From the IMG/VR virus record IMGVR_UViG_3300021354_000019, positions 1-34,738 of that record: 34,738 nt of DNA; one strand, written 5' to 3'. Below the pieces are notes generated by a model. It ran no database searches. It was given only the letters and a program-made list of their open reading frames with translations, and had not been told where the DNA came from. This document shows, one piece after another, positions 17,929 to 21,207 of this stretch; within the stretch, counting starts at the first letter, position 1, and each line of letters opens with the position of its first letter. The translations under genes and the position numbers were made by a program. The DNA comes from a virus.

Positions 17929-17957
17929 AGTTTATTAAGTTAGCTTAACCCTGTCAA
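17929..17957 (-). promoter_or_regulatory. Leftward sigma70-type promoter of small-gene operon
   Basis: On the minus strand there is a perfect -35 TTGACA (17952-17957), a 17-base spacer and -10 TAAACT (17929-17934). The start of transcription would be near 17922, giving a leader of about 30 bases to the ATG at 17892. The spacer holds a palindromic operator candidate. Confidence 0.7.
17935..17948. promoter_or_regulatory. Operator candidate TTAAG-N4-CTTAA, copy 1
   Basis: TTAAGTTAGCTTAA is a palindrome with 5-bp arms. It fills the spacer between the -35 and -10 boxes of the leftward promoter, where a bound protein would block RNA polymerase. Two further copies with the same arms lie at 19668-19681 and 20919-20932, also in promoters. 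The bases between operator and the gene at 18052 show no further gene. Confidence 0.65.
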
Positions 17958-19664: not shown

Positions 19665-19693
19665 ATATTAAGCCAACTTAAATAGGATTGCAA
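19665..19693 (-). promoter_or_regulatory. Leftward sigma70-type promoter of recombination operon
   Basis: On the minus strand there is -35 TTGCAA (19688-19693), a 17-base spacer and -10 TAATAT (19665-19670). It drives the genes at 19624, 19424 and 18813. The operator candidate 19668-19681 overlaps the -10 and the spacer. It is divergent from the promoter at 19702-19729, a genetic-switch type arrangement. Confidence 0.7.
19668..19681. promoter_or_regulatory. Operator candidate TTAAG-N4-CTTAA, copy 2
   Basis: TTAAGCCAACTTAA has the same arms as the copies at 17935 and 20919. It overlaps three bases of the -10 box of the leftward promoter and most of its spacer. The YdaS/Cro-like gene at 19735 starts 53 bases away and is the nearest candidate for the binding protein. 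Confidence 0.65.
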
Positions 19694-19734: not shown

Positions 19735-19959
19735 ATGGAAAATACAAGAGCAATGATTAAATTATTGGGTGGATGTACAAAAGTTGCTGATTTAGTAGGA
19801 GTTTCGGTGGCTGCTGTATCTATGTGGCAAAACGGCAACATTCCTTATGACAAGCTGGTAATCCTAGCCGCCTCGCTAGAAAAGGAAAGTCACGGTTTAT
19901 GGTCTAGAAAAAACCTATTTCCGCTATCTTACAAATTAATATGGCCCGAGTTAGATTAA
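19735..19959 (+). CDS. YdaS/Cro-like transcription regulator
   Basis: This 74-residue protein has a helix-turn-helix of YdaS/Cro type: IKLLGGCTKVADLVGVSVAA followed by VSMWQNGNIPYDKLVILA. The recognition helix is about 25-35 and the IP-turn is typical of YdaS. It ends in LFPLSYKLIWPEL, matching the short C-terminal strand of the family. It lies at the divergent switch region, starts without a ribosome site, and may bind the repeated TTAAG-N4-CTTAA operators. Its last 19 bases overlap the glycosyltransferase gene. Confidence 0.78.
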   Translation: MENTRAMIKLLGGCTKVADLVGVSVAAVSMWQNGNIPYDKLVILAASLEKESHGLWSRKNLFPLSYKLIWPELD

Positions 19960-20510
19960 ACAACATTACGCTATGTTGTATTGATTCGGTACAGCCTGAC
20001 CGCGCTAGACAAGCTTTTGACAGGTGTAAGGAATATTTTGATTTTGGCGGGGAAGTTTTTATAAATGACCCCCAAATCAATAGCCGTCAGGCATATAGCA
20101 AATTTATCCTTCAAGAACTGCATAAACACATCCACACGGACTTTGTTTTAATTGTGCAATGGGATGGGTACATTATTAACCCCGAAGCTTGGAAGCCCCT
20201 ATTTTTAGACTATGACTACATAGGCGCGGTATGGCATTGGCATCCTGAAAACAGACGGGTAGGCAATGGTGGCTTTAGCCTACGCTCAAAAAGACTGTGT
20301 GAACTGACCGCCCAGCCTGAGTTTGTGTACATAGACCAAAACGAAGATGACCTAATTTGCCATGTAAACAGGGACTATTTAGAAGGTAAGGGCATGAAAT
20401 TTGCCCCCGAAGAACTGGCTAGGTATTTTAGTTTTGAGCGCGAATTGTCAAATATTAAGACTTTTGGCTTTCACGGGGATTTTAATTTTGAAAGACTTGG
20501 TATACAATAG
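19941..20510 (+). CDS. DUF5672-like glycosyltransferase
   Basis: This 189-residue protein has the DUF5672 outline: NNITLCCIDSVQPDRARQAF, then FVLIVQWDGYIINPEAW (DxD-like metal site region), DYIGAVWHW, RVGNGGFSLRSKRLCEL, QNEDDLICHVNRDYLE and finally TFGFHGDFN. These match GT-A fold sugar transferases seen in bacteria and phages. It may modify a phage or host glycan. It overlaps the regulator by 19 bases, so both probably come from the same mRNA and it could be expressed with the regulator rather than with late genes. Confidence 0.75.
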   Translation: MARVRLNNITLCCIDSVQPDRARQAFDRCKEYFDFGGEVFINDPQINSRQAYSKFILQELHKHIHTDFVLIVQWDGYIINPEAWKPLFLDYDYIGAVWHWHPENRRVGNGGFSLRSKRLCELTAQPEFVYIDQNEDDLICHVNRDYLEGKGMKFAPEELARYFSFERELSNIKTFGFHGDFNFERLGIQ

Positions 20511-20516
20511 GAATAT
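20488..20516 (+). promoter_or_regulatory. Promoter candidate for the structured RNA
   Basis: TTGAAA (20488-20493), 17-base spacer, GAATAT (20511-20516). It lies at the end of the glycosyltransferase gene. The predicted start, near 20523, falls exactly on the first base of the CTGAAAC element of the RNA fold described next, which is mutual support for both. Confidence 0.5.
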
Positions 20517-20522
20517 TGAGGA

Positions 20523-20634
20523 CTGAAACACTCGATAGATAAGGTTTTAGAGGTAACTTTGTGGGTTTCGGAAATGAGATAAGAGGCATTTCCAAAGCCG
20601 TTTCAGCATAAAGCTACCCCTAAAGCCTTTTTTT
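20523..20634 (+). ncRNA. Candidate structured RNA with pseudoknot and terminator
   Basis: There is no ORF here, yet base pairing is extensive. P1: 20541-20560 pairs with 20610-20629, 20 positions with two A-C mismatches and one G-U, followed by seven T (20628-20634). P2: GGTTTCGGAAATG (20564-20576) pairs with CATTTCCAAAGCC (20587-20599), 13 positions with one mismatch and one G-U, around a purine-rich 10-base loop. P3: CTGAAAC (20523-20529) pairs perfectly with GTTTCAG (20600-20606) and crosses P1, so it forms a pseudoknot or an alternative fold. A promoter candidate lies just upstream. This looks like a free small RNA of about 112 nt; family unknown. Confidence 0.6.
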
Positions 20635-20640
20635 ATTGTC

Positions 20641-20918
20641 AGTCCCATTCGTACTCCAAACGATATTAAGCACCTAACTGGGTGGCGTGGAAGGATACAT
20701 CGGCTTATCTACACCTGATAGCAAGCCGCGCTGACTTAAATGGGTACAGCACAAGACGGATAGGACAATGGTGATAGACAAACCTTCCATCGATTGAACA
20801 TTAACTTTGGTAGCATTAGTTCAAGTACAGGATTTAACTTCTTGGATGGATGTGGTGCTTATCACCTTTGGGGAACTATTGACAAAAAAACAACACATAG
20901 GGAAAACACCTACTAATA
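20641..20918 (+). other. Gene-free, hairpin-rich stretch
   Basis: No convincing ORF; the longest open stretch lacks a start and is cut by stops upstream. Hairpin candidates: CACC/GGTG (20671-20674, 20681-20684), CGGCTT/AAGCCG (20701-20706, 20723-20728) with an inner ATC/GAT, the long-range TGGAAGG/CCTTCCA (20688-20694, 20783-20789), and GGTG/CACC (20854-20857, 20863-20866). It could be a second structured RNA, a long leader, an origin element or a decayed gene. Confidence 0.4.
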
Positions 20919-20940
20919 TTAAGTAGACTTAACATATACT
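20912..20940 (+). promoter_or_regulatory. Rightward early promoter
   Basis: -10 TATACT (20935-20940) is good; the -35 position, ACTAAT (20912-20917, 17-base spacer), is poor. Transcription would begin near 20947 with a 21-base leader to ATG 20968, which has GGAG at 20958-20961. The weak -35 suggests that an activator may be needed or that the operator protein sets its strength. Confidence 0.5.
20919..20932. promoter_or_regulatory. Operator candidate TTAAG-N4-CTTAA, copy 3
   Basis: TTAAGTAGACTTAA, same arms as copies 1 and 2, ends two bases before the -10 box TATACT of the rightward early promoter. The placement (spacer, next to the -10) is the same as in the two leftward promoters, although the strand is opposite. 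Confidence 0.65.
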
Positions 20941-20967
20941 TCAATTAGATTAACTTTGGAGTACAAC

Positions 20968-21207
20968 ATGACTTGGAATCTACGATTAGTAAATATGAGC
21001 AATCCTTATGAGGATTATTTTGAAATTCGCGAAGTTTATTACGACACAATGGGTAAACCTATTGGCCACAGCAACGCTGCTATTGGTGGGGAAGATAGAC
21101 TAGAAGTTGATAGATACATTGAACTTGCTAAACTGGCTTTAGATAAACCTATTATAAAGTTTGCAAACCATGAAGATACTTGTAAAGATAATCAAAGAGA
21201 ACCCTGA
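20968..21207 (+). CDS. Hypothetical protein, first gene of rightward early operon
   Basis: I chose ATG 20968 (GGAG 6 bases upstream) over an in-frame TTG at 20956. The 79-residue product begins MTWNLRLVNMSNPYEDYFEI and has REVYYDTMGKPIGHSNA and RLEVDRYIELAKLALDKPI. It is a small mixed alpha/beta protein with a polar tail. Phages carry many proteins of this look; function unknown. Its 3' end overlaps the next gene by 38 bases. Confidence 0.6.
   Translation: MTWNLRLVNMSNPYEDYFEIREVYYDTMGKPIGHSNAAIGGEDRLEVDRYIELAKLALDKPIIKFANHEDTCKDNQREP

Follow-up and report, generated by a model that had tools for sequence, protein, structure and literature searches.

The window analysed here is the whole 34,738-nt stretch of the IMG/VR virus record IMGVR_UViG_3300021354_000019, and our analysis centres on positions 20511-20955, which hold no credible open reading frame and sit between a DUF5672 gene and the early genes (Table 1). 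This stretch contains a compact predicted RNA, RNA-1, followed by a second structured element, RNA-2. The only ORFs over the RNA-1 structure are short and either stop inside the fold or run across it, in agreement with the initial annotation, which had described 20523-20634 as free of ORFs. The DUF5672 gene upstream is missing from most loci among the matches listed. Operator-like palindromes of the TTAAGNNNACTTAA type precede both cro and the early operon, with a third copy at 17935-17948, and none is found at the RNA-1 promoter.

Table 1. Features between cro and the early operon of the window (positions are those of the window)
Feature	Position	Strand	Remarks
Cro-like HTH gene	19735-19959	+	usual upstream neighbour; P22_Cro E 6e-7, slightly below the curated cut-off; PHROG repressor
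DUF5672 gene	19941-20510	+	in this phage an insertion that separates cro from RNA-1; Pfam DUF5672 E 7e-21
Promoter TTG-N3-TACAAT	20497-20508	+	-10 at 20503-20508; no conserved -35
RNA-1	20514-20634	+	predicted start about 20513-20515, end in U-run; layout kept in at least about 220 distinct sequences
P1 hairpin	20514-20537	+	TATTGAG 20514-20520 / CTCGATA 20531-20537; CTGAAAC in loop
P0 5' arm GGACTGA	20520-20526	+	overlaps P1 and PK1
PK1 5' arm CTGAAAC	20523-20529	+	in P1 loop; pairs with 20600-20606
P2 5' arm (outer, terminator helix)	20541-20563	+	pairs with 20607-20629
P3 inner hairpin	20564-20599	+	5 bp + C.A mismatch (20569/20594) + 7 bp; arms 20564-20576 / 20587-20599; loop 20577-20586
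PK1 3' arm GTTTCAG	20600-20606	+	no linker to P3 or to P2, which flank it
P2 3' arm and U-run	20607-20634	+	intrinsic-terminator form; T7 at 20628-20634
P0 3' arm TCAGTCC	20639-20645	+	past U-run; complementary to 20520-20526
RNA-2 type a	20650-20900 (approximate ends)	+	second structured noncoding element
Operator-like palindrome TTAAGTAGACTTAA	20919-20932	.	upstream of TATACT (early promoter, promoter-like); same palindrome before cro, 19668-19681

The elements of RNA-1 are arranged in the order P1, P2 5' arm, P3 hairpin, PK1 3' arm, P2 3' arm and U-run, with P3, the PK1 3' arm and the P2 3' arm abutting without spacers. The fold has a minimum free energy of -40 kcal/mol (z -4.9), whereas dinucleotide shuffles gave -23.2 ± 3.4 kcal/mol. 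PK1 is a predicted 7-bp H-type pseudoknot in which the P1 loop pairs with the strand between P3 and P2. The CTGAAAC/GTTTCAG pairing, the inner 13-position helix and the T7 tract that the initial annotation had pointed out are all found in the window, as is its outer helix, although this helix covers 23 positions with two mismatches rather than the 20 positions given there; the P1 hairpin was absent from that account. The further proposal that the pseudoknot and the terminator helix are competing states of a switch does not fit the fold. PK1, P2 and P3 are disjoint, abut one another and are conserved together, and because all of these helices are compatible the two-state idea is unsupported. 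If there is a switch, it would set P1 against P0, the downstream complement of the 5' end.

Searching with the DUF5672 protein retrieved 45 IMG/VR loci in which the sequence after its stop codon was divergent and followed one layout. Relatives were gathered by DNA pattern scans of IMG/VR with patterns taken from the sequence types, some contigs being fetched twice, and the RNA-1 locus entries number at least 295, comprising at least 170 of type B, at least 71 of type A (the window's type) and at least 54 of types C/D. These represent at least 129 distinct RNA-1 sequences of type B, at least 50 of type A and, by a stricter filter, at least 44 of types C/D. Further types occur at two IMG/VR loci (L040/L042) and in GenBank entry MW202674, and MW202753 is a type-A variant; the GenBank relatives are metagenomic. 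Variants of RNA-1 are present in two distant relatives from Manatee Spring, and INPHARED held no near-identical phages. Hypothetical proteins are annotated over the RNA-1/RNA-2 stretch in MW202753 (L376, 2953-3384) and MW202674 (L375, 2192-2688), and these are likely spurious ORFs. A scan of a genome collection returned one contig only with RNA-1, a stray. A 3.5-kb contig with cro and RNA-1 in a Bacteroidota MAG (L103) is probably a stray phage contig and so provides no host evidence.

Comparative analysis of the fold relied on two alignments, A4 (38 type-A sequences, the window first) and A1 (23 type-B sequences). In A4, 97.8% of cells were paired and 18 pairs carried double changes, with 0 of 500 shuffles as high, and sliding one arm by a single column lowered pairing to about 50%; in A1 the values were 96.5% and 18 pairs, again with 0 of 500 shuffles as high. 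PK1 was 100% paired across the 38 sequences of A4 and 98.8% paired in A1, with double changes at 6 of its 7 pairs in each. Pairing within A4 reached 99.2% of cells for P2, which had 7 pairs with double changes, and 95.7% for P3, where the position of the mismatch is an A-U pair in 17 relatives and where type B repeats the same 5+1+7 shape. P1 showed both-sided changes at 3 of 7 pairs in A4, with variants such as CGCG/CGCG (L376) and TATTAAG/CTTAATA (L246). Arm permutation gave 16.0 versus 8.7 ± 0.58 for PK1 in type B, 16.3 versus 9.4 ± 0.83 for PK1 in type A and 14.9 versus 13.3 ± 0.24 for P1 in type A, and control combinations gave no signal in either type. The 112 G-U cells in A1, against 6 A-C cells, indicate that the plus-strand RNA is the selected strand. 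In type B the P3 loop also pairs with the linker between P1 and P2, forming a second pseudoknot, PK2 (permutation 21.5 versus 14.0 ± 0.33). PK2 is seen by eye in many C/D sequences (for example TTAGTATGGT/ACCATACTAA in L268), and it appears to be present in most types other than A. In type A, to which the window belongs, permutation gave no PK2 signal (9.98 versus 9.59 ± 0.18), and we therefore make no PK2 claim for the window. The locus entries are phylogenetically non-independent; the structural conclusion is nevertheless safe because of the arm permutations and the many compensatory types. The idea of a pseudoknotted RNA has thus held up, as the crossing pairs are kept with covariation in both alignments and compensatory changes in P1, P2 and P3 among related phages were found by a wide margin. 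Judged from these sequence comparisons, 20514-20634 is almost certainly a real structured RNA gene.

RNA-1 is closely, if not strictly, associated with cro. A Cro-like gene lies on the locus in 242 of 295 entries among the matches listed, its end usually about 40-60 nt before the scan anchor and 500-900 nt before it where a cargo gene is inserted. When loci were collected by Cro alone, P1, PK1, P2 and the U-run were found together in 70 of 78, against 1 of 78 shuffled controls that kept mononucleotide content only; among the 8 loci failing this descriptor, 6 held further sequence types by eye and 1 a recombined remnant. Loci lacking that Cro carry another small Cro/YdaS-like gene or, in about seven cases, a rusA-like gene, and the occurrence of RNA-1 after the latter excludes a strict tie to cro. 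A related cro is also present in MW202520, where RNA-1 is absent by its annotation, so that RNA-1 is not universal. The interval separating cro from RNA-1 serves as a cargo spot, occupied by DUF5672, PAPS-reductase-like, NDP-sugar epimerase-like or restriction-endonuclease-like genes (for example in L109, L131, L160 and L077, and at 19941-20510 in the window).

The initial annotation had assigned RNA-1 its own promoter and terminator, and both are borne out by a conserved -10 element and a helix with a U-run, but the promoter was misplaced: the proposed GAATAT, with a start at 20523, overlaps the P1 5' arm, and the -10 element is TACAAT at 20503-20508, from which a start near 20513-20515 is predicted. 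Across 191 distinct upstream sequences a TATAAT-like hexamer stands 5-7 nt before P1, nearly always with at most two mismatches, compared with mostly 2-4 mismatches at control positions; a TTTG motif lies just upstream of it in the relatives, and no -35 element is conserved in this set. The gene preceding the -10 box differs among loci (cro, DUF5672, epimerase, restriction-like or rusA-like), so the box belongs to RNA-1. The U-run is found in nearly all relatives and is absent from a few type C/D loci (those of type D being L339, L342, L360, L317, L362 and L372). RNA-1 accordingly has the marks of a small RNA gene, namely a promoter at fixed distance, a conserved fold, a U-run and no ORF.

The same region could be read as a cis-only element, an elaborate terminator or attenuator that would end the cro transcript and whose pseudoknot would tune termination or 3' stability. 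In phage lambda the terminator tR1 is located after cro, and the placement of RNA-1 resembles it; the U-run and P2, moreover, are conserved in nearly all relatives. However, a terminator has no need of P1, PK1 or PK2, the private -10 box at its fixed distance from P1 moves with RNA-1 when cargo separates it from cro, and some C/D loci keep the fold without a U-run, and we consider a purely cis-acting role unlikely. The earlier suggestion of an attenuator for the operon starting at 20968 looks less likely, with an operator-like palindrome lying just upstream of the TATACT element there.

An ORF-free stretch of at least 150 nt follows RNA-1 in 99% of 229 loci among the matches listed (median 348 nt). 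For RNA-2 type a, the form present in the window, RNAalifold on 30 relatives gave 43 pairs, 17 of them with double changes, with 99% of cells paired and 180 GU against 2 AC on the plus strand. RNA-1 is nearly always followed by an RNA-2, of which at least six interchangeable sequence types exist; in addition to the window, representative positions are 5718-5839 in L006, 3120-3241 in L199 and 2591-2714 in L166. RNA-2 type d is the Betaproteobacteria-1 RNA (RF02932) in 11 of 25 scanned loci, of RNA-1 types A, B and D. Types c and e (L303, L122, L074) have the common motif GAGCGAGGGTCGACACCTGC and are absent from Rfam. At two loci (L239, L427) RNA-1 is recombined between P3 and P2 and joined to a type-a RNA-2.

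The boundary between RNA-1 and RNA-2 is bridged by P0, a complementarity between the 5' end of RNA-1 and a site past its terminator. The pairing recurs with different sequence in relatives, as GGAATAG/CTATTCC in L002, GGAATTGAAC/GTTTAATTCC in L255, AAGCGGA/TCCGCTT in L006 and GGCAGA/TCTGCC in most type-B sequences; its register shifts between types, and it is absent from a few B loci (L105, L117, L166). Double changes occur at 2 of 6 P0 pairs in A1, and permutation gave a modest signal (type B 15.2 versus 14.3 ± 0.17, type A 16.2 versus 14.7 ± 0.37; z about 4-5) to which co-inheritance could add. P0 and P1 are mutually exclusive, and P0 is retained in the type D loci without a U-run. We infer that P0 is a feature of the read-through transcript.

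This complementarity also bears on the possibility that RNA-1 is an immunity RNA acting by antisense, like P4 CI, P1/P7 C4 or P22 sar: its 5' part would pair in trans with the P0 site at the start of the read-through leader, halt transcription or processing of the leader and so determine immunity specificity. Such a role would suit the covariation that P0 shows with the RNA-1 5' part in several of the types, the location between cro and the replication genes and the great differences in loop sequence among phages. Set against it, the P0 site lies past RNA-1's own terminator and would rarely be transcribed, P0 is only 5-7 bp in most sequences, the flanks hold no other complementary sites, and the loop is already occupied by PK1, so that we regard immunity by antisense pairing as improbable. 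Regulation of phage mRNA was among the roles named in the initial annotation; antisense pairing of the loop with such mRNA found no backing in the flanking 4-15 kb, which contained no complement beyond permutation. Action through shape, upon a protein or RNA-2, is favoured over antisense because the fold is kept while the sequence drifts, the helices are tight and the flanks lack complements.

Taken as a whole, the best explanation, to which we assign a probability of about one half, is that RNA-1 is an autonomous noncoding RNA gene acting in trans, with a short and a read-through form. RNA-1 would be driven by its own promoter, which bears no copy of the cro/early operator, and for this reason may be made whether or not the early genes are repressed; its terminator would also end the cro transcript. 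The mature RNA would act in trans by its compact shape, for which we put the chances at about even, and its likeliest partner would be a protein or RNA-2 rather than a target of a free antisense loop. Read-through into RNA-2 would occur in a minority of transcripts, and in these the P0 3' arm would capture the 5' end and open P1 to give a long form with a different fold. Since P0 can open P1 only in RNA that extends past the terminator, the most economical reading of all the parts is two forms, one short and one long, that fold differently; that both isoforms are functional and exchange P1 for P0 is a tentative proposal, somewhat short of even odds. As an extension that we hold to be doubtful, RNA-1 and the interchangeable RNA-2 might together make up a regulatory system of two RNAs in temperate phages, with RNA-1 setting the amount and folding of RNA-2 through the P1-to-P0 exchange and the RNA-2 types, the Betaproteobacteria-1 RNA among them, serving as exchangeable specificity or effector modules. 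If real, such a system would represent an undescribed kind of RNA-based module for immunity or host takeover.

Trans action by shape could alternatively mean that RNA-1 is a decoy that titrates a regulatory or defence protein by mimicking a host RNA, such as an antitoxin pseudoknot, a CRISPR RNA or an abortive-infection RNA. The compact fold and fast sequence change would be in character, and the exchange of RNA-2 partners and cargo genes at a single site gives the locus the look of an accessory region; yet RNA-1 has no Rfam similarity, no defence gene was found among the neighbours tested, and its near-constant presence is rather that of a core function, which makes a counter-defence decoy very unlikely. 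The arms of PK1, PK2 and P0 are ready-made compensatory mutants with which structure and function can be tested, given a culturable phage. More broadly, the family to which RNA-1 belongs is large and strongly supported, and it places structured RNAs with one or two pseudoknots at the core of regulation in a common phage group. RF02932, an orphan family, gains a genomic context, as some of its copies are phage genes following RNA-1.

Comparison with known RNAs supports the initial annotation in recognising no family for RNA-1. Rfam 15 matched nothing in the window at the gathering threshold, and likewise nothing over RNA-1 in a further 25 loci that span several types; at loose thresholds the best E-values for RNA-1, 2-3, were those of chance miRNA models. 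RNA-1 is, as judged by these searches, a new and large RNA family in phages that lies outside Rfam. An HDV-like ribozyme was rejected, the order P1-P2-P3-PK1'-P2' lacking a P4 and Rfam giving no match, as was a type III (ToxI-like) antitoxin, RNA-1 being a single unit rather than tandem pseudoknot repeats and ten neighbouring proteins giving no PADLOC match. In at least 11 loci the RF02932 RNA, an orphan structured RNA, follows RNA-1 immediately and in the same orientation, and its model matches neither RNA-1 nor the window's own RNA-2. This family is the one hint at a host, pointing to Betaproteobacteria. Lambda 6S RNA is a short terminator-ended phage RNA with a longer read-through form. IsrK of Gifsy-1 similarly has two isoforms, a terminator-ended short RNA and a longer read-through form (PMC4825925). 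These two RNAs have no shown sequence or structure relation to RNA-1, whose read-through form is deduced from P0. P4 CI RNA and P1/P7 C4 are small RNAs encoded in the immunity or early region that work by antisense pairing. Phage small RNAs with regulatory roles also include P22 sar and lambda OOP (PMC12197685). RNA-1 resembles CI, C4, sar and OOP as a small RNA of the immunity or early region and differs from these antisense-pairing RNAs in that a pseudoknot ties up its loop, that the flanks hold no target of the loop beyond permutation, and that it shares the strand of cro. GOLLD and ROOL are large pseudoknotted RNAs encoded by phages and prophages, with strong covariation and no assigned function (PMC12286853), and the window scores below the Rfam threshold for their models. 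They exceed 500-800 nt, form cages and often lie near tRNA islands (PMC12286853), whereas RNA-1 measures about 120 nt and lies at cro; like GOLLD and ROOL, however, RNA-1 is phage-encoded, pseudoknotted and strongly covarying.
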